Shown: positions 26,243-35,186, numbered from the stretch's first letter. The stretch is 35,186 bases of DNA from [Collinsella] massiliensis (GCA_000333815.1 CAPI01000123.1:1-35186), one strand, 5' to 3'. Made by a program: numbers and translations. Notes: generated by a model from the letters alone, not told the origin.

Positions 26243-26317
<75 letters not shown>

Positions 26318-26363: not shown

Positions 26364-26403
26364 GGCGACTCACTGCGGGCGGGTGGGGTGGACGGCGCTG
26401 GCC

Positions 26404-26509
26404 GATGGGTTGGTTGGGGACGTGTTCCTTTCAACCCATTCGCGCGATTGCGGCGTCTCCCGCAGAATCCGAATGGGTTGATAGGAACACGTCCCCAACC
26501 AACCCATCC
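26404..26509. repeat. Inverted pair of family B repeats (REPIN-like)
   Basis: Copy 2 at 26404-26442 (ATGGGTTGGTTGGGGACGTG and onward) and copy 3 at 26470-26509 are reverse complements over about 39 bp with few differences. Each copy has its own ATGGGTTG/CAACCCAT stem. A pair of REP units in inverted orientation is the usual form of a REPIN. No RAYT transposase is in the window. Confidence 0.8.
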
Positions 26510-26528
26510 CACTTCGCCGAAATTCTCG

Positions 26529-26557
26529 CGTATCTTCGCCCGCGATGGGGGTATAGT
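26529..26557 (+). promoter_or_regulatory. Promoter region of candidate RNA copy 1
   Basis: TATAGT at 26552-26557 is a good -10 box. The stretch before it (TTCGCCCGCGATGGGGG) closely matches the one before copy 2 (TTCGCCTGCGGCGGGTG). There is no standard -35 hexamer, so the conserved upstream part may be bound by another factor. Confidence 0.5.
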
Positions 26558-26563
26558 ACGCAT

Positions 26564-26966
26564 ACACTTTTTTCTTCCGTAACCAGCTCCGCTTCGGGCG
26601 GGGCGCCGAGCACATCAGATACGAGTTCTAGCGAGTACGAGGTAACGGCATGCAGTGGAGTAAGGCCATCTAACAACTTAATAGCGCGTGATGTATGTGG
26701 TCCAGCAGTCCCTAGGCGGAGCTGTCTCTATTCGAGGAGCTGCGCCCCGGGTCCCTGCCCCCTGTCCCGTCTCGGCGTGGTCGTTCCTGCGCCGGGCGGA
26801 ACCGACAGGGCTGTCACCTTGATAACCGCATACACGCCAACCTCCCTTCGGCGGGGCGCGCCCGGCGCTGCCCCGTCCCGCGGCGAGCGCACCCCGAGTG
26901 CGCGACGACCTGCGGAAGCGAGCCCGCCGGGGCGATGACCTTGTGGGGAGGGCGGCGCGACCCATT
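26564..26966 (+). ncRNA. Candidate large structured RNA, copy 1
   Basis: A non-coding stretch that matches a second one at 28354-28745. Blocks shared exactly include 26609-26627 (19 nt), 26666-26686 (21 nt, containing CTAACAACTTAATAGCG) and 26708-26728 (21 nt, containing CCTAGGCGGAGCTG). They are followed by GGTCGTTCCTGCG at 26779, a CTTGA-AACCG-ATAC block at 26818 and hairpin loop CCCCGAG at 26892. Distances between blocks differ by only 0-2 nt between copies. A hairpin can be drawn at 26716-26747 (GGCG-AGCT-CTC paired with GAG-AGCT-CGCC). The true 3' end is unknown, and the transcript may run on to 27120. It is not assigned to any known RNA class. A mobile-element RNA of the GOLLD/ROOL kind is only an analogy. 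Confidence 0.65.
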
Positions 26967-27147
26967 CGTCCGGTGGCAGCGGCCACAAGGAACGAGCGCG
27001 GCGGCCGACGGGCCGCGCCGACGCACGAACGTCGGGCACCGGACGGGGAAAGTCGGCTGGGCACCCCCCATCGCGGGCGGTGCCGGCCGGCACACACGGC
27101 ACCAGCCGCACAACGACATCACGCGTTATCAACTAAGGGAGATTCGC

Positions 27148-28296
27148 ATGGACGAAGATGTTCCGACGCTCGAAGATCTGATTGAAGAACTGACGGCAAC
27201 GCCCGTCGAACCGACCGTCGAGCAGCTCGCATGGAAGGCAGAGCAAGAACGCATCGCGCGGGAGCAGAAGGCCCGCGAGGATGAGTTCAACCGGCTCCGC
27301 CGTCCCTACCACGATCGCGTCTTCAGCGCGTTCGCAGCGTTCGCCCGGATTCCGCTCGCGCACCTGGCAGGGGGCTCCGGACGCGTCGCGGAGGCGACCC
27401 GTGCGCGCATCGATGGCTACCTGAAGCGGTTCGGGCCGGGGCTCTGGGATCACTGGGGCAAGACGCTCGGCTCTGCTGCGTGCCTCATCACAGAGGACTA
27501 CTTCGACCTCGAGGAATACCAGCCCAAGCTCATGAAGCAAAAAGACGATGACGAGTTGAACATCGTGCCCTGGGAGCAGCCCTATGAGCCGCCGGCCGAG
27601 GGCTATTACCCTGACGATACCGCCATCGGAGCCGCGCCCGATGCGCCCGAGCGCGACGCCAAGATCAAGGAGGGCCTCGCCCGCATCATGCCCTGCATGA
27701 CCGAGCTCGTCGCCACGGCGATCGACGTGCTCGAGCTGCACGGCGTCGACACGCACCGCGCCGATGCTTACGAGCAGGCGCCGAGCTTCGGCGAGGGGTA
27801 CTACGCAAAGCCTCTCTACGCCGGCATGCTCAAGCTGCCCGCCGCCGCGCGGGAAGACGCCATCGACCGTTTCACGCTCATGGGCATGACGGAGGACGAG
27901 GCGCGCACGACGGTCTCCGTCCTGCTCGAGATCCCGTTCTGCGAGCTCGAGGCCGTCGTCTGGTTCTTCTACGACGACGAGGAACCCTACGGCTTCTCGA
28001 AAACGACCTTCATGCTCGATCTATCCGAGGGCGAGGGTAAGATCATCGACGGGATCGAGTTGTCTCGCCAGGAGCTCATCAACACGATTGACACCGTCGC
28101 CTCCGACACCGTCTGCCACATCAAGACGGCGCACGTGAGCGCAGACGATAGCCAGCCCATCGCTGCTGTCGTGCGCGACCTGGCGGCAGGCGCGCGCACC
28201 GACGATGAGTACGAGGCGCTGCTAGCCATAGGGACGTACAACAAGCTGCTCCACCCGCTCTCCATCATGGCCGACTACCGGATTCCGCGCTGCTGA
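27148..28296 (+). CDS. Unknown protein between the two candidate RNAs
   Basis: 382 residues, acidic, no signal peptide or membrane span. I do not recognise a family. Residues 1-50 are charged and helical (VEQLAWKAEQERIAREQKAR), and 52-100 contain FSAFAAFARIPLAHLAGGSG, which might be a DNA- or RNA-binding helical bundle. A variable acidic loop lies around 125-170. The C-terminal 120 residues are mixed alpha/beta (LDLSEGEGKIIDGIELSRQEL). The ATG at 27148 follows AAGGGAGATTCGC, and frames starting further upstream overlap the candidate RNA. It lies directly after RNA copy 1 and could be read from the same promoter or bind the RNA; both are inference. Confidence 0.75.
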   Translation: MDEDVPTLEDLIEELTATPVEPTVEQLAWKAEQERIAREQKAREDEFNRLRRPYHDRVFSAFAAFARIPLAHLAGGSGRVAEATRARIDGYLKRFGPGLWDHWGKTLGSAACLITEDYFDLEEYQPKLMKQKDDDELNIVPWEQPYEPPAEGYYPDDTAIGAAPDAPERDAKIKEGLARIMPCMTELVATAIDVLELHGVDTHRADAYEQAPSFGEGYYAKPLYAGMLKLPAAAREDAIDRFTLMGMTEDEARTTVSVLLEIPFCELEAVVWFFYDDEEPYGFSKTTFMLDLSEGEGKIIDGIELSRQELINTIDTVASDTVCHIKTAHVSADDSQPIAAVVRDLAAGARTDDEYEALLAIGTYNKLLHPLSIMADYRIPRC

Positions 28297-28318
28297 GCGA
28301 AAAAACTCAAAATTCCTG

Positions 28319-28347
28319 AGCACGTTCGCCTGCGGCGGGTGTATAGT
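28319..28347 (+). promoter_or_regulatory. Promoter region of candidate RNA copy 2
   Basis: TATAGT at 28342-28347, with the upstream block TTCGCCTGCGGCGGGTG shared with copy 1. The distance from the -10 box to the first conserved block is 47 nt here and 53 nt in copy 1. Confidence 0.5.
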
Positions 28348-28353
28348 GAAGCC

Positions 28354-28745
28354 CACCCGTTAAAGAGTTCTGTACCCACAGGCTCGCCGCCAAGCACATC
28401 AGATACGAGTTGTAGCACGTAAGAGGTAATGGCAAGCATGAGCAAGACCATCTAACAACTTAATAGCGTTGGTTGCACGTCGTGGTTCGTCCCTAGGCGG
28501 AGCTGTCTCGATTTGAGGCGTTTGCGCTTGCGGACGTTCCCAGCCCTGCCCCATCGGCGCGGTCGTTCCTGCGTCGTGGGCGCATGGGTCATGGTAGCTT
28601 GACAACCGTATACGCGCTGCTTTCCAGCGGCGTGGTTGCGCCTTGCGCGCAATCGCGCTCCCCGACGAGCGCGCCCCGAGCGCGCGATGACCCGGGGAAG
28701 AGAGCCCGGCATGGCGATGACCTCGCGGGGGAGCAGCGCGATTCC
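28354..28745 (+). ncRNA. Candidate large structured RNA, copy 2
   Basis: Counterpart of 26564-26966. Shared blocks are at 28393-28411, 28448-28468, 28489-28509, 28561-28573, 28598-28617 and around 28669-28733, where GATGACC occurs twice, as in copy 1 (once as GACGACC). The hairpin at 28669-28685 is GCGCG-CCCCGAG-CGCGC, against GCGCA-CCCCGAG-TGCGC in copy 1; this is a compensatory change that keeps the pair. The remaining sequence between blocks differs strongly, as expected for RNA structure rather than coding. The gap to the next gene (28746-28971) shows little similarity to copy 1. Confidence 0.65.
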
Positions 28746-28971
28746 ACATCCTGCACGGCATCTGAAAGGAGCGCGTGGGCAGCAGACGCAACCGCCCCGC
28801 CGCTGAGCACTCGATGTCGCGCAGGGAAACCACACGACGACCGCCAGCTCAAGGCGGTCAAACAAACACGTATCCATAACGCAGTCCTCCGTGCGCCCAC
28901 ACGCGGCGCACGGCCCCACCCTCGAGCACATCACGATGGAAACCACACGTATCAGACGGGAGAGGAACCAC

Positions 28972-29271
28972 ATGGCACACCCTACGGCGCAGCAAACCTT
29001 TTTCGATTCGAACCCTGAATACGCGACGCTCGTCTACGCGGCGCAGGACGCGCGGGCGGCACTCGGTATGGCGCTTTCCGGCGAACTCGACGCGCTGCTC
29101 GCGCATGAGGGAGGCGTCGAGTACGAGCGGTACGGCCGCCCGAGCGATGAGGAGATGCTCGCAACCTATCTTTCCTCCCTGCAGCGCGTCTGGGCGTATG
29201 AGGAGGAGCACCGCGAAGAGGTGCGCCGCTGCCAGGATCTATTCGGTTCCGAGACGTGCGTGGAGGCGTAG
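28972..29271 (+). CDS. Small acidic protein of unknown function
   Basis: 99 residues, acidic, predicted mostly helical, no membrane span. No family recognised. Residues 20-45 (LVYAAQDARAALGMALSGEL) and 60-85 (EEMLATYLSSLQRVWAYEEE) would form amphipathic helices. The ATG at 28972 follows GGGAGAGGAACC. It is the first gene after RNA copy 2 and its stop is one base before the next start, so the two are coupled. Confidence 0.7.
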   Translation: MAHPTAQQTFFDSNPEYATLVYAAQDARAALGMALSGELDALLAHEGGVEYERYGRPSDEEMLATYLSSLQRVWAYEEEHREEVRRCQDLFGSETCVEA

Positions 29272-29272
29272 C

Positions 29273-30196
29273 ATGAACACGCGAACTACCGTACTTGCCG
29301 GCCGCATCGACGCGGCGCTTGACAGCATGGTTCCGCCCGAACTGATCGCTGCCAGCCTCTCCGTCCTTGCGCGTGCCCCCTGGGAGCGCTACTGCGGAGA
29401 CGCGAAGGCGCGCCGCATGTGTCACCGCATCGCTACGTCGGGGATGACCGGGCTGTACCTCGAGAGCTATGGCGCGGAGCTGCCCGAATGGACAGGCGAT
29501 GTCGGCGGCATCGCGCGCCTCGCGATGATCCTCGACGACGCCGTCCGCCGCGCGCAGGATCACAACGCCCTCGTCGCCCTCACCGCGAGTCGGGAGGCGC
29601 TCGTAGACGGCCTGCTCGACCCGATCCGCAAGTACACGATGTGGAACAGCAAAGCCCGTGAGCAGAAAGAGACCGGCCAAGCGTCTGACGATACGGGCAG
29701 GGAGACATCTCGTTCGCAGCGCCGGCGCTCGCCCCGATACGATTTCGCTCACATGGCACGGAAGTACTGTGGCAACGACCTCAATGCTGCCGAAGCGCGT
29801 GCGCTGTTCTATGCCTTCTGCTTTTCCACGGCGGGCGACATCCTCGAAGCCGTCAGGTCGTCGCCTGAACTCTCCAAGGGCCCGGCAGCGCCGGACTTCA
29901 AGCAGTATTCCGCACGGGCGACCGGGGCGCTCGGGGAATCGCGCGACTGCTCTGCCGAGGTCATGTGCGAGCACTTCGCGAAGAAGCGAGCGTGTATCGA
30001 TGAGGCCTGCGAGGACGAGGACTATCCCTGGTGGGATGAGGATCCGGAGAGTCCCGAGGAACGCTTGCAGCGCTTGGCCCTGCCCCTGTTCTTCGAACCC
30101 CTGGCGCTTGCGAGGTGCTATGGAACCGGGGCAGCGTGTGCTCGCACACAGGCACGCCGCAATCCCACGCTCTCTGCCCGCCTCGCTGCCGCCTGA
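29273..30196 (+). CDS. Unknown protein, coupled to the small acidic gene
   Basis: 307 residues with no family I recognise. The N-terminal 125 residues look helical (VLAGRIDAALDSMVPPELI, GGIARLAMILDDAVRRAQD). Residues 126-152 are a hydrophilic Ser/Arg/Gln linker. The C-terminal half contains MARKYCGNDLNAAEARALFYAF and a Cys- and Asp/Glu-rich stretch (CEHFAKKRACIDEACEDEDY) that might bind a metal, followed by a basic Arg-rich end. It starts two bases after the upstream stop and precedes the ATPase gene by 51 bp. A partner role for the ATPase is possible from position only. Confidence 0.7.
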   Translation: MNTRTTVLAGRIDAALDSMVPPELIAASLSVLARAPWERYCGDAKARRMCHRIATSGMTGLYLESYGAELPEWTGDVGGIARLAMILDDAVRRAQDHNALVALTASREALVDGLLDPIRKYTMWNSKAREQKETGQASDDTGRETSRSQRRRSPRYDFAHMARKYCGNDLNAAEARALFYAFCFSTAGDILEAVRSSPELSKGPAAPDFKQYSARATGALGESRDCSAEVMCEHFAKKRACIDEACEDEDYPWWDEDPESPEERLQRLALPLFFEPLALARCYGTGAACARTQARRNPTLSARLAAA

Positions 30197-30247
30197 TGCA
30201 AGGGCGCGCCAGACCAAAACCAATACGTTTCAGAAGGGATGCTGCTC

Positions 30248-31654
30248 ATGTCCACGGACTTGCCGAACGTCATCGACCGCACCGCTTACCAGAGCCAGAC
30301 CATCGTCGGCCGCAACCGCACCATCGAGACCGACTCCTTCCAGACGGGCATCAACAACAACATGCTCGTCATCGGCCCATCAGGCGCGGGCAAGACGCGC
30401 CACGTGCTCAAGCCCAACCTGCTTCAGATGGGCTCGAGCTTCATCGTGCTCGACACCAAGGGCACGCTCTGCCGCGAGATGGGCACGATGCTCGCTGGTG
30501 CAGGCTATACGGTCGAGTGCCTCGACTTCGCGAACATCTGCGAAGAGCCGCGACCGCTTCCCGCCGGAGCCGCGCACGTGGGCTACAACCCGCTCTCGTT
30601 CATCCGTCGAGACTCCCACGGCCGCCCCAACCAGCAGGACATCCTCTCCATCGCTGTCGCACTCTGCCCTGTCGAGAACGGGAAGGAGCCGTTCTGGGAC
30701 CGCGCCGCGGCAAACCTCCTTGCCGCGCTCATCGCATACGTGATGGAAGAGCTGCCACGCGAGGAGCAGACGTTCGCTGCGCTGGTCGAGCTTGCCGAGC
30801 ACCTGAATGACGGTGCGACATTCCGCTTGCTCGATGACCTCGAGGTGAGCGACCCCGATAGCCTCGCATCCTCGCTGTACCTGCGCTACGCCTCCACGCG
30901 CGATGCCGAGAAGATGAACGCGAGCATCATCGGCATCATTGCCGAGAAGCTCATGTGCCTGGGGTTCGACGGGGCGCTCAGACTCTACACCGCCTCCCGC
31001 CAGGTCGATTTCGCCCGCTTCGGCCACGAGCGCCGCGCGCTCTTCGTGACCATGAGCGACATCGACCGCGCGCTCGATCCACTCACGAGCCTCTTCGTCG
31101 ACCAGGCCTTCAAGGCGCTCCTGCGCGAAGCGGACCGTTGCCCGGGCGGCCGCATGCCCGTTCCCGTACGGCTCTTCCTCGACGACTTCGCGAACCTCTA
31201 CATCAACAACATCGACGACCTGCTCGCCGTCGCACGCAGTCGAGAGATCTGGGTCACGCTGCTGCTGCAGTCTGTGAATCAGCTCGAGGCACGCTACGGC
31301 CGGTCGCGCGCCATGTCCATCATGGGCAACTGCGACGTGCAGCTCGCGTTGGGCTTCCAGGACCTCGACACGGCGCGTTGCTTCTCCGAGCGTGCGGATC
31401 GGATGCCGAAGACCCTGCTCGAGCTGCCCTCCGGTCGCGCCTGGCTCTTCGTACGCGGTCGGCGTGCCGAGGAAGTTGAGAGCTACCGCCTAGAGGAACA
31501 CCCGCGCTACGCAGAGCTCGTCACTGCGGCTGCCGCTCCGTTCGAGACGTCGGGGCAGAGGGCTCCGGAAGCAGCGCCCGCGCGTGAACCCGTCGATCCC
31601 GTTTCCATGGGGGAGGCGTGTTCGTTCACGCTCGACGAGGAAATTCCGTTCTAG
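30248..31654 (+). CDS. VirD4/TraG-like coupling ATPase without membrane domain
   Basis: 468 residues. Walker A GPSGAGKT at 43-50 is followed by KPNLLQMGSSFIVLDTKG, typical of conjugative coupling proteins. Walker B RLFLDDFAN is at 308-316 and the LLQSVNQLEARYG motif at 339-351. Normal VirD4/TraG proteins have one or two N-terminal membrane spans and are about 600 residues; this one starts only 42 residues before Walker A, so the membrane part is absent. I chose the ATG at 30248 over 30239 because AGAAGGG sits 9 bp upstream. It may be a soluble DNA pump or belong to a mobilisable element. No relaxase or T4SS channel gene is visible. Confidence 0.88.
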   Translation: MSTDLPNVIDRTAYQSQTIVGRNRTIETDSFQTGINNNMLVIGPSGAGKTRHVLKPNLLQMGSSFIVLDTKGTLCREMGTMLAGAGYTVECLDFANICEEPRPLPAGAAHVGYNPLSFIRRDSHGRPNQQDILSIAVALCPVENGKEPFWDRAAANLLAALIAYVMEELPREEQTFAALVELAEHLNDGATFRLLDDLEVSDPDSLASSLYLRYASTRDAEKMNASIIGIIAEKLMCLGFDGALRLYTASRQVDFARFGHERRALFVTMSDIDRALDPLTSLFVDQAFKALLREADRCPGGRMPVPVRLFLDDFANLYINNIDDLLAVARSREIWVTLLLQSVNQLEARYGRSRAMSIMGNCDVQLALGFQDLDTARCFSERADRMPKTLLELPSGRAWLFVRGRRAEEVESYRLEEHPRYAELVTAAAAPFETSGQRAPEAAPAREPVDPVSMGEACSFTLDEEIPF

Positions 31655-31714
31655 CCCCGCCCCAGCACCTGTCTAGTCTGTTCAAACCGTGTAGCCCAAG
31701 AGAGAGGAATCTTC

Positions 31715-32311
31715 ATGGAACAACGCATCATCAGTCCCCGCACCATGCGCGAGACGGCGCGCGGCATCGCGCTCACGAGTATCTACGACGAGATGCTCTC
31801 CCGCCGCGAGCTCTCCGTGACCGGAGCGATCGATGCCGCCATGGCGTTCGACATCTGCCAGCAGCTGCTCCAACTCGAGCACGATGACACCTCCGCCGAG
31901 GTCACGCTCTATGTGGCGAGTCCGGGCGGCAGCGTCTCCGCCGGCCTCGCCATCGTGGACACCATGCGCACCATCGCATGCCCCGTGCGCACCGTGTGCC
32001 TCGATACCGCCGCGTCCATGGGCGCGATTATCTTCGTTTCCGGTGACCGCCGCGAGATGTTCCCGCACGCCGAGCTCATGATCCACGACCCGCTCATCCA
32101 GAACGCCGGCGGCTCGGCGCTCTCCGTGCAGGAGACGAGCCGTCGCCTCATGGGGCTTCGCCGCACCCTCAGCCAGATTCTGGCTGACCGCAGCGGCCTT
32201 ACCGTCAAGCGCGTGCAGGCGCTCACTGCCAAGGACACCTTCCTCACTGCCGAGCGCGCCGTGGAGCTCGGCTTCGCCGACGCGATCGTCGAGCCGCGCA
32301 AGGCGGCATAG
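31715..32311 (+). CDS. ClpP-type serine protease
   Basis: 198 residues of ClpP fold. The oxyanion loop SPGGSVSAG is at 69-77. The nucleophile Ser101 is in AASMGA, His124 in LMIHDPL (usually MIHQP), and Asp174 in TAKDTF matches the last Asp of the ERDTERD stretch of E. coli ClpP, so the triad is complete. Such isolated ClpP paralogues occur in phages and other mobile elements, where they process capsid or partner proteins. Here it follows the ATPase gene by 60 bp. No ClpX or ClpA partner is present, and no capsid genes are visible. The ATG at 31715 follows AGAGAGGAATC. Confidence 0.9.
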   Translation: MEQRIISPRTMRETARGIALTSIYDEMLSRRELSVTGAIDAAMAFDICQQLLQLEHDDTSAEVTLYVASPGGSVSAGLAIVDTMRTIACPVRTVCLDTAASMGAIIFVSGDRREMFPHAELMIHDPLIQNAGGSALSVQETSRRLMGLRRTLSQILADRSGLTVKRVQALTAKDTFLTAERAVELGFADAIVEPRKAA

Positions 32312-32407
32312 AGGAGGGCGTGCCGGGTCGCGCCCGAGCAGCGTGCTTGCGCGCGTCCCGGCTTGTTTCGCCATTGCAGGTCGACGTCGAGAGGGAAGGA
32401 GACGCGC

Positions 32408-33214
32408 ATGTTTCGCATCCTGTTCAAGTTCATCATCCGAATGCTCCTGGTTTGCTTCATATTGCTCTGTCTGATGGCCTACTGCACCGCTCACGTTCCC
32501 GACCCAAACACCGGTTTCAACCCTATGGGCGAGCAGGTGTTCGTCCCCGAGGGCAAGGCCTATATGGGCGAGGTGGTCGAAATCAACGAGGGATCTCAGC
32601 TTGAGGAATGGGCACACTCGTTCGACCCGGGGCAGTATCCGGATTACGTCCGCGTCGTCAGCGCGTATCCGGACGAACTGCGCACCGAGCTCGATAACGG
32701 CATCTTGTACGGAGAGGTCGATGACCTCGGACGCCTGCCGGGTGCTGCCGGTTGGATCACGAACGACATGCGCTCCGATGCACCGGATGCAGAGGCGGAC
32801 ATCATGGATATGAAGGGTAACGTCTGGGCGAAGGTGCCCGGCACGCCGGGGCGCTACGGCTTCGAGGGCAACTTGTTCAAGCCCGTGAATCTCATTCCTC
32901 CGTCGCTCGGTGGCGACAACGCGAGCCACAACATCGTGCGCGGCACTGTGATGCTCGATGAGGGCGACGGTCACACCCCGGGTGGCCTCTCCTATACCGA
33001 GAGCCTTGTCAACGACTACCTCGATACGCATCCGGACGGGCGCGTATGGTACAACGTCGTGCCGGTCTACGGCGCGGGCGAGGTCATCCCGCGCGCCATC
33101 GTGGTCGGCATCGCTACCGAGGACGGTGAGTTGAGCGTGCGTGCGGTCGTGTTCAACGCCGCGAACGGCCTCGACATCGACTACAAGACCGGTGAGGTGA
33201 GCATGGTGAGGTAA
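32408..33214 (+). CDS. EndA-like nuclease-fold protein lacking the DRGH motif
   Basis: 268 residues. The N-terminus (about 8-26) is a hydrophobic segment, either a signal peptide or a membrane anchor. The C-terminal half resembles the DNA/RNA non-specific endonuclease family: NLIPPSLGGDNASHNIVRGT (161-180), then YTESLVNDYLDTHPDGRVWY, VVPVYGAGEVIPRAIVVGI and VVFNAANGLDIDYKTGEV. In active EndA/NucA members the stretch before this reads DRGHL; here residues 157-162 are FKPVNL, so the catalytic His is absent. The Asn that helps bind the metal (Asn175) is kept. It is probably inactive as a nuclease, or uses another mechanism. The ATG at 32408 follows GGGAAGGAGACG. Confidence 0.7.
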   Translation: MFRILFKFIIRMLLVCFILLCLMAYCTAHVPDPNTGFNPMGEQVFVPEGKAYMGEVVEINEGSQLEEWAHSFDPGQYPDYVRVVSAYPDELRTELDNGILYGEVDDLGRLPGAAGWITNDMRSDAPDAEADIMDMKGNVWAKVPGTPGRYGFEGNLFKPVNLIPPSLGGDNASHNIVRGTVMLDEGDGHTPGGLSYTESLVNDYLDTHPDGRVWYNVVPVYGAGEVIPRAIVVGIATEDGELSVRAVVFNAANGLDIDYKTGEVSMVR

Positions 33215-33430: not shown

Positions 33431-35186
33431 ATGAGCAGTCAAGATCGTATCGATATCGGCAACGAGAACGTCAATGCAAAGGGTGCATCTGAATGGCGCG
33501 AGGCCGAGCAGAAATGGGAGGCGCGGGAGAAGCTCTTGGGCTGCGACCCGTACTCCATTGCTGGCGGCACCACAAGCGATGTGATTCGGCAGCTTGCTGA
33601 CATGGGGCTCTTGGGCAAGAACGCAAACGTCCAGGTGATGACGCGAGTAGTGGATTCGATTCTCAAAAAGGCCAAGGTCATGCGAGATTCCAATACGCCC
33701 ACTGACCTCGGCCGCACCTACGGTATTTCTGATGACCCGAAGAAGCCCTTCGGCGGACAGGCCATCAAGCCGATTCTGATCGTGCTCAACCAGCTTAATC
33801 TGATTACGGTAGCCACGAGAAGGAATGCAGCTCCACGGATGACTTGGGAAGAGGCTGAGCGGGCGTGGCTTAAGCTGTACCGTACGGCAGAGGGGCGCAG
33901 GATTCTTCAATTCATGAAGGGTGGGACAATCAAGGATCTTCTGCGTGAGCTCGTGGAGAAAGGGCATCTTTCCGAAGAAACCCATGTCAATGCGATTAGC
34001 AAGCGCGTTCTTACTGTTTTGCGAGATGCGGGGTTTATTGAGCTCAACCCAGACTACTCATTTAGCGTTACCGACCAAGGAAGGAAGCGCGGAATTGTCC
34101 GTGCCGAAGGGTCGGAGTTTGATGGTAGGATCGTGATGGACAAGACTCCTTCCCGGTGGAATCGCAAGCACCGGTTCTTCGAGTTTTTCACCTCATCTGA
34201 TAGTGAAGGGCTAGTACTTACCGCGCTTATACAGCTGGATTTGTTTCTAGCTGATTCAAAAGCCGAGCTTCAGCGGCGCAAGACGGAAAGATACAACCGC
34301 TCTAAAACTAAATGGCTCAAAGCACAGTTAAACTGGGAAAAGAAATGCGGTGCGCTTGAGGGTCTTGACGATATCGAAGGCGGAACTCTCTACCACGTGC
34401 TTTATCAACTTGCCGAGAGGGGTTTTCTCTCGGTTGCGAGCTGGGATGAGTCGAATGGTGCCGATGAGCATCGGGACGAAAGCCTGTGTTCATCTGACCA
34501 GGTATCCAGCATGATAGACAATCTTAAAAAGCCGATCGAATCGCTTCAAAGTGGCCAGATCGGTCGCTATGTGGATAAAAAAGATGACCAGCTATCGATT
34601 GCCGCTCGCGTTAAGAAAGCCTTCCCCGAAGCGGGTTTGGTTGACTTCATTGCAGGAAGACCGGCTAGTTCTAGTTTGTCTCGCTATTTGACCAGTGACT
34701 TTGGCCGGGAGCGCGGAGTTATCTACCATGATGGGTCTCTAAAAATAGGGAGGGTTGACGTTAGCGCAGATGGTGTGGAGACAATTCTTGTGCTACTTGA
34801 TCATCTGGGTCTACTCATCACTGACCGAAAAGCTATCCAGAGGGAGCGCGAGAAGTTTGAGGCAAAGAAGCGTTCAATAGGGAAGAGGATTAATGAGCTG
34901 GAAGCAGTGAGGGCGCAGCTGGAGGAAGAGGAGCGCAAGAAGAGAGAAGAGCGGGAGGCAGAAGAAAAGCGACGCAAGGCAGAAGAAAAGCGGCGCAAGG
35001 CAGAAGAAAAGCGGCGCAAGGAAGAAGAGGAACGCCGCAAAGCAGAGGAGATTAAGCAAAAACAGGCCGAATGGTGCGAGCTAGAACAAAGGTGGCGAGA
35101 GAGCGTCAAGCAGCAACATGGTATTCAAACCATTCGGGGCGGAGCGCTCGGACGCGTATTGAGAGAATGCAAACAGAAGGGGTTCC
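33431..35186 (+). CDS. Large coiled-coil protein of unknown function (3' end outside window)
   Basis: The frame runs from ATG 33431 (ribosome site GGAGCGAGGAGAG) to the window edge, 585 codons without a stop, so the gene is incomplete. No family is recognised. The first 330 residues hold several short alpha/beta stretches that look like winged-helix repeats: IKPILIVLNQLNLITV, AISKRVLTVLRDAGFIEL, HVLYQLAERGFLSV. A long charged coiled coil rich in Glu, Lys and Arg begins near residue 475 and includes the heptad AEEKRRK three times, encoded by near-identical 21-bp tandem repeats at 34958-35020. Base use is more A+T-rich than the genes before it. It could be a DNA-binding scaffold, but no function is assigned. 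Confidence 0.8.
   Translation, partial: MSSQDRIDIGNENVNAKGASEWREAEQKWEAREKLLGCDPYSIAGGTTSDVIRQLADMGLLGKNANVQVMTRVVDSILKKAKVMRDSNTPTDLGRTYGISDDPKKPFGGQAIKPILIVLNQLNLITVATRRNAAPRMTWEEAERAWLKLYRTAEGRRILQFMKGGTIKDLLRELVEKGHLSEETHVNAISKRVLTVLRDAGFIELNPDYSFSVTDQGRKRGIVRAEGSEFDGRIVMDKTPSRWNRKHRFFEFFTSSDSEGLVLTALIQLDLFLADSKAELQRRKTERYNRSKTKWLKAQLNWEKKCGALEGLDDIEGGTLYHVLYQLAERGFLSVASWDESNGADEHRDESLCSSDQVSSMIDNLKKPIESLQSGQIGRYVDKKDDQLSIAARVKKAFPEAGLVDFIAGRPASSSLSRYLTSDFGRERGVIYHDGSLKIGRVDVSADGVETILVLLDHLGLLITDRKAIQREREKFEAKKRSIGKRINELEAVRAQLEEEERKKREEREAEEKRRKAEEKRRKAEEKRRKEEEERRKAEEIKQKQAEWCELEQRWRESVKQQHGIQTIRGGALGRVLRECKQKGF
34958..35020 (+). repeat. 21-bp tandem repeats encoding AEEKRRK
   Basis: Three units at 34958-34978, 34979-34999 and 35000-35020, with a degenerate fourth after them. 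Units differ by one base. They keep the reading frame and extend the coiled coil by whole heptads. Confidence 0.9.

Follow-up and report, generated by a model that had tools for sequence, protein, structure and literature searches.

A conserved gene pair encoding a VirD4-family ATPase and a ClpP paralog in gut Coriobacteriales

To our knowledge, the only descriptions of ClpP outside the gene pair reported here show it either by itself or together with AAA+ Clp ATPases. VirD4 proteins of the ICE type are ∼590 amino acids (aa) long and carry an N-terminal membrane segment, and their loci are flanked by PcfB, VirB6, PrgI, and VirB4. Among ATPases of the HerA kind, DUF4297-HerA is an established example of a ring in complex with an effector (PMC11291478). 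A search of literature available without subscription found no description of a ClpP-VirD4 system.

The stretch of DNA analysed (the window), 35,186 bp long, is the whole of contig C13 in a Coriobacteriales genome (G000; 2.33 Mb, 135 contigs, 99.65% complete). Ordinary chromosomal genes (PTS, NanE, SpoU methylase, YacP, aldo-keto reductase) are followed by a tRNA-Thr (TGT) gene on the minus strand (26243..26317) and then by the block under study. The original prediction proposed that two large RNAs, an ATPase, a protease, and several further proteins at 27148-33214 form one module. All six open reading frames (ORFs) that it named are present, all on the plus strand, and both RNA copies are real, but RNA copy 1 lies before the proposed start of the block. 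The contig end interrupts a further ORF at 33431-35185 (585 aa, open), in which repeated winged-helix-like segments, GGTxxxLL...GRxRGI, are apparent by eye, and which weakly matches (E 6e-5) a protein encoded downstream of the G002 module. Elsewhere in the window, a gene at 8511-9638, adjoining a 2,686-aa ORF at 66-8126, encodes a surface-type protein that weakly matches an LPXTG anchor and contains, unusually for a bacterium, a ubiquitin-like domain (E 1.5e-15 to Pfam ubiquitin). A long inverted repeat with 50-nt arms (GGGGACGTGTTCCT...) is found at 26393-26519; its arms occur at dozens of sites in the genome, and it resembles a dispersed hairpin or MITE.

The ATPase gene (30239..31654) and the gene of a dedicated ClpP paralog (31715..32311), both on the plus strand, almost certainly belong to a module that exists as a conserved unit. 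When 148 relatives were searched with the ATPase, 30 loci in 27 genomes were recovered, and a ClpP gene adjoins VirD4 in all 30 of these VirD4-selected loci. ClpP is usually directly upstream of the ATPase, and lies downstream in G000, G002, and an independent Olsenella locus (L040). A ClpP profile search uncovered 38 module-type ClpP genes in 35 of 296 genomes of the class, with a clean split between module-type (E <= 3e-74) and housekeeping ClpP (E >= 4e-57). Module-type VirD4 (E <= 1e-139) is present in 11 of 12 further genomes selected by module ClpP, ten of which have it adjoining and one (G228) with a gap of ∼2 kb; in G262 the module ClpP has no adjoining VirD4. Genomes without module ClpP contain only ICE-type VirD4, at E >= 1e-80.

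The carriers are gut bacteria of the order Coriobacteriales, namely Collinsella and its relatives, and a 346-genome sample of the phylum gave no further match outside Coriobacteriaceae. Data on spread outside Actinomycetota come from plasmids and viral contigs only. Viral contigs gave no match to a single ClpP query, and one true pair (L134) when searched with alignments. Its ClpP is 46% identical, and a DUF3991/Toprim gene of the kind found in conjugative elements of Bacillota is close to the pair. Because this viral contig carries the same pair, the pair is probably able to travel. In one Collinsella locus (L028 about 1465-1475, genome G040) the ClpP stop is lost through a one-base deletion, and the ClpP frame runs on into that of the ATPase; we rejected this as a real fusion, the deletion being of one base in a single draft assembly.

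The ATPase scores 257.3 bits against the NCBIfam model NF045973 (CD1115 VirD4; cut-off 250), which bears out the original VirD4-like call, and its Walker A and Walker B motifs are intact. Module ATPases are ∼420-600 aa long, mostly 430-490, and start shortly ahead of Walker A, which is found at residue 35-55 as against 138-159 in ICE homologues. No N-terminal hydrophobic segment of transmembrane strength is present in them (31 module proteins compared with 3 ICE homologues). In an AF2 model of the ATPase (mean pLDDT 85.6), the motor and the all-alpha domain match those of TrwB and Cag-beta; the next fold neighbours are VirB4, HerA of SIR2-HerA, and DndH. By analogy with its coupling-protein relatives, the motor would form a hexamer. 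The gene is under purifying selection (dN/dS 0.26, G000 vs G002). PADLOC gives only a distant, partial match to mad8 (E 3e-10).

The C-terminal tails of module ATPases cannot be aligned and often end in Ala-Ala like the ssrA degron (for example L031, L032, L035, L037). Such ends occur in 7 of 20 representative ATPases and in 3 of 174 other proteins, and a motif L..R[ILV]..A occurs in 7 of 12 partner proteins and in 6 of 174 others; both motifs were counted only after they had caught our attention, so that their p-values are not clean, and we regard them as suggestive. An SSB-like tail, TLDEEIPF, was considered as a general feature of the ATPase and rejected, being found in G000 and G002 only. 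For the Collinsella VirD4 loci L012-L028, search matches run through a TAG near the C-terminus in many genomes, possibly only as a chance artefact of the search.

The protease matches the Pfam Clp protease family (E 2.7e-47), and it has no match to PADLOC defence models. Thirteen module ClpPs were compared with the E. coli protein and with nine housekeeping ClpPs from the class. Catalytic residues S97 and H122 are kept in all 13 module proteins and D171 in 12. In contrast, five other positions are replaced in 12-13 of the 13 and kept or conservatively varied in all nine housekeeping proteins: F82 is lost throughout (A/S/T in 12, L in 1), F112 is a charged or polar residue in 12 (mostly E), S88 is R/H/N/D, R22 is E/Q/A, and E14 is I/L/V. 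F82 and F112 correspond to F87 and F117 of NmClpP, in the pocket to which ADEP and the IGF loops of Clp ATPases bind (PMC6853987). With these pocket residues lost, docking of ClpX/ClpC would be expected to be weakened. The gene is under purifying selection, with a dN/dS of 0.04 between G000 and G002.

The module occupies a chromosomal hotspot between tRNA-Thr and tRNA-Tyr/tuf, of which the tRNA-Thr of the window is the left border. It follows yacP and tRNA-Thr(TGT) in G000, G020, and G060, and in the latter two it is succeeded by tRNA-Tyr, tRNA-Thr, tRNA-Met, and tuf. In G004, of the same genus, the site is empty, with ∼600 bp from tRNA-Thr to tRNA-Tyr. In the Collinsella genomes inspected the module lies beside pgi. 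A cassette of the window (28913..32461, plus strand) is 96.1% identical to the sister genome G002, a value exceeding both the 81-86% of housekeeping DNA and the 81% of the block formed by the RNA and the 382-aa gene, and we therefore regard it as recently exchanged. The near-identical cassette stops 54 bases inside the 268-aa gene, which speaks against the earlier inclusion of that gene in the module.

Neighbours differ among loci, and no effector is universal. Among them are DarT accompanied by a NADAR fragment, as well as MazE/ParE (G002), Abi_2 (G146), Fic (G217), an SF1 helicase like Mokosh proteins (L040, L041, G023, G192), and a TOTE S1/CSD domain protein (G196). A family of 210-280 aa proteins adjoins several pairs (L053:12108-12746, L103, L105, L117, L118, L119); its GIDVV...FQVKT motif resembles that of a PD-(D/E)XK nuclease, and the member tested has no Pfam match.

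The 382-aa protein (27148..28296, plus strand) is an accessory protein of no known family, found elsewhere only in G002, in two copies; neither it nor the 99-aa accessory protein (28972..29271, plus strand) has a Pfam, NCBIfam, PADLOC, or PHROG match. A 59% relative of the 99-aa protein adjoins the pair in Olsenella L040. The partner protein at the window locus is a 307-aa protein (29273..30196, plus strand), whose relatives adjoin the pair in G002 and L040 and which has no match above cut-off in the same four databases. It is fast-evolving (dN/dS 0.86, G000 vs G002, on very few changes) and probably helical, with a low AF2 pLDDT (35.6), and is likely to be a specificity or adaptor subunit. 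The 268-aa protein (32408..33214, plus strand) lies outside the module. It carries an N-terminal hydrophobic segment, and its description as nuclease-fold is weakly founded: that match (E 0.026) is under the Pfam cut-off, and the only other one is to phrog_5170, a phage family of no known function (E 6e-26). The core is a two-gene module made up of the soluble motor of the VirD4 family and the dedicated ClpP, with which one fast-evolving partner is usually found.

RNA copy 1 (∼26560..27147) and RNA copy 2 (∼28350..28971), both on the plus strand, lie 5' of the 382-aa and the 99-aa gene, respectively, and are ∼73% identical over ∼355 nt. Their conserved cores are at 26602-26963 and 28383-28743, with a conserved TATAGT box upstream of each, at 26552-26557 and 28342-28347. 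Together with the G002 copy they align at 78% mean identity, and the consensus fold of these three sequences has 94% of cells paired. In the core, 13 pairs are changed on both sides, compared with a shuffle mean of 4.8 (reached in 0 of 500 shuffles) and with 0-3 for sliding; for three sequences the support is good but limited. Folded singly and compared with shuffles, copy 2 is weakly better (z -2.95) and copy 1 is not (z -1.07). No Rfam 15 family reaches its gathering threshold for either RNA. In appearance the RNAs are structured 5' leaders that have a promoter of their own.

The RNA was searched for by BLAST in 297 relatives, plasmids, and phages, by a pattern scan of viral contigs, and with a covariance model. 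Three copies in two genomes were found in total, two in G000 and one in G002 (L039, the same record), and copy 2 is missing at the matching place in G002. The covariance model, run on 33 loci and 79 genomes, had no match in 77 of the genomes and none at any other module locus tested. The ClpP-VirD4 pair is found in at least 14 genera without the RNA. We rejected the RNA as a core component on these grounds; it is lineage-specific and accessory, and is not needed by the module elsewhere.

The original prediction also noted that the block has no transposase or relaxase gene and suggested that no known conjugation or phage region accounts for it, and on both points our data agree. We saw no transposase, relaxase, or integrase at the block, and queries with VirB4, VirB6, PrgI, PcfB, and relaxase found none in the 30 module neighbourhoods (644 kb). 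VirB4 is missing from the whole G000 genome. Of 17 module genomes, 10 lack it, and seven have it at a site far from the module. At the related G002 locus the sequence runs into toxin-antitoxin genes and the tRNA cluster, where the contig ends at tRNA-Tyr/tRNA-Met. Conversely, none of 15 ICE-type VirD4 loci has a ClpP. The ClpP-VirD4 module is not a conjugation system. As for the single module without mobility genes that had been proposed, the ATPase-protease pair stands, while the RNAs and the nuclease-fold gene are not members.

The best explanation we can offer, which we judge to have an even chance of being right, is that the motor ring docks on or gates ClpP as a conflict or defence protease. 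The VirD4-like ring would take the place of ClpX/ClpC on the dedicated ClpP and would thread a protein, or a DNA-bound protein, into its chamber; alternatively, engagement of foreign DNA by the motor would open the chamber. Selection of the target or the trigger would fall to the variable partner. ClpP and VirD4 are likely to cooperate physically; the docking-pocket argument is drawn from substitutions. A function in conflict or defence against phages or mobile DNA is plausible from context, and is made probable by a mobile and patchy occurrence, a tRNA hotspot, and toxin, Abi, helicase, and nuclease-like neighbours, although defence neighbours in hotspots also arise by chance. The stronger proposal, which we put forward only tentatively, is of a new class of energy-dependent compartmental protease: a ring motor from the coupling-protein family of conjugation, in place of a Clp/AAA+ unfoldase, would dock on a purpose-built ClpP and feed it, as a weapon against phages or mobile elements. 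A minority possibility of similar weight is defence of the HerA kind, in which the ring would sense or travel along invading DNA without being an unfoldase, and ClpP would be the effector that kills or stalls the cell. The nearest non-secretion folds of the ATPase (HerA of SIR2-HerA, DndH), the precedent of DUF4297-HerA, and the neighbouring Mokosh-like SF1 helicase, Abi_2, Fic, DarT, and TOTE-domain proteins all favour it. However, ClpP needs threading in order to degrade proteins that are folded, so that acting as an effector alone would require its gate to be opened, and PADLOC yields nothing closer than the distant mad8 match.

The patchy distribution (27 of 148 relatives, 35 of 296 class genomes), the empty site in G004, and the recent exchange at 96% identity count against a fixed Clp variant that degrades a normal Coriobacteriales substrate and has no conflict role; such regulated housekeeping proteolysis would fit the stable place beside pgi in the Collinsella genomes inspected, but we consider it unlikely. 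Still less probable, and largely refuted, is that VirD4 is a left-over coupling protein of a conjugative element, serving others in trans, with ClpP incidental. The score above the CD1115 family cut-off and the viral-contig copy near DUF3991/Toprim, known from a Bacillota conjugative element, would be explained in this way. Against it stand the missing membrane anchor, the lack of VirB4, VirB6, PrgI, and relaxase nearby and of VirB4 anywhere in G000, an invariant ClpP partner that none of the 15 ICE-type VirD4 loci has, and intact genes under purifying selection. That the entire block and its two RNAs make up a single ribonucleoprotein system, mobile or defensive, is very unlikely: the RNAs are structured and directly 5' of module-adjacent genes, but they are missing from the other module loci tested and from nearly all genomes searched, and the two parts of the block have diverged unequally from G002 (81% against 96%).

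If the docking or gating of ClpP by the motor is true, a new motor would be added to the small list of those driving proteolysis, and HerA-like defence would be extended to protease effectors. With two to three genes the unit is small, and it is common among Coriobacteriales of the gut.

Several known systems share parts with the module. The CD1115 VirD4 of Bacillota conjugative elements has the same ATPase fold and family, the Walker motifs, and the all-alpha domain, but it is ∼590 aa long with an anchor, whereas the module ATPase is mostly 430-490 aa without one, has no linked VirB4, VirB6, PrgI, or relaxase, and is accompanied by ClpP in 30 of 30 selected loci. Canonical ClpP of ClpXP and ClpCP has the ClpP fold and Ser-His-Asp triad in common with the module ClpP, in which the docking pocket (F82, F112, S88) and axial residues (E14, R15, R22) are replaced and whose partner gene encodes a VirD4-type motor in place of an AAA+ Clp ATPase. 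ClpP-type head maturation proteases of phages also have the ClpP fold (phrog_94, E 1.7e-36), but the module partner is a VirD4 ATPase, and no capsid or portal gene was seen in the loci inspected. The MADS component Mad8 is a distant, weak, and partial match of the module ATPase (PADLOC, E 3e-10), while the other module proteins match no MADS component. In SIR2-HerA and DUF4297-HerA, as in the module, a ring ATPase of the HerA/FtsK superfamily adjoins a single effector enzyme; the module, known from sequence, differs in that its motor belongs to the T4CP branch and its effector is a ClpP protease.
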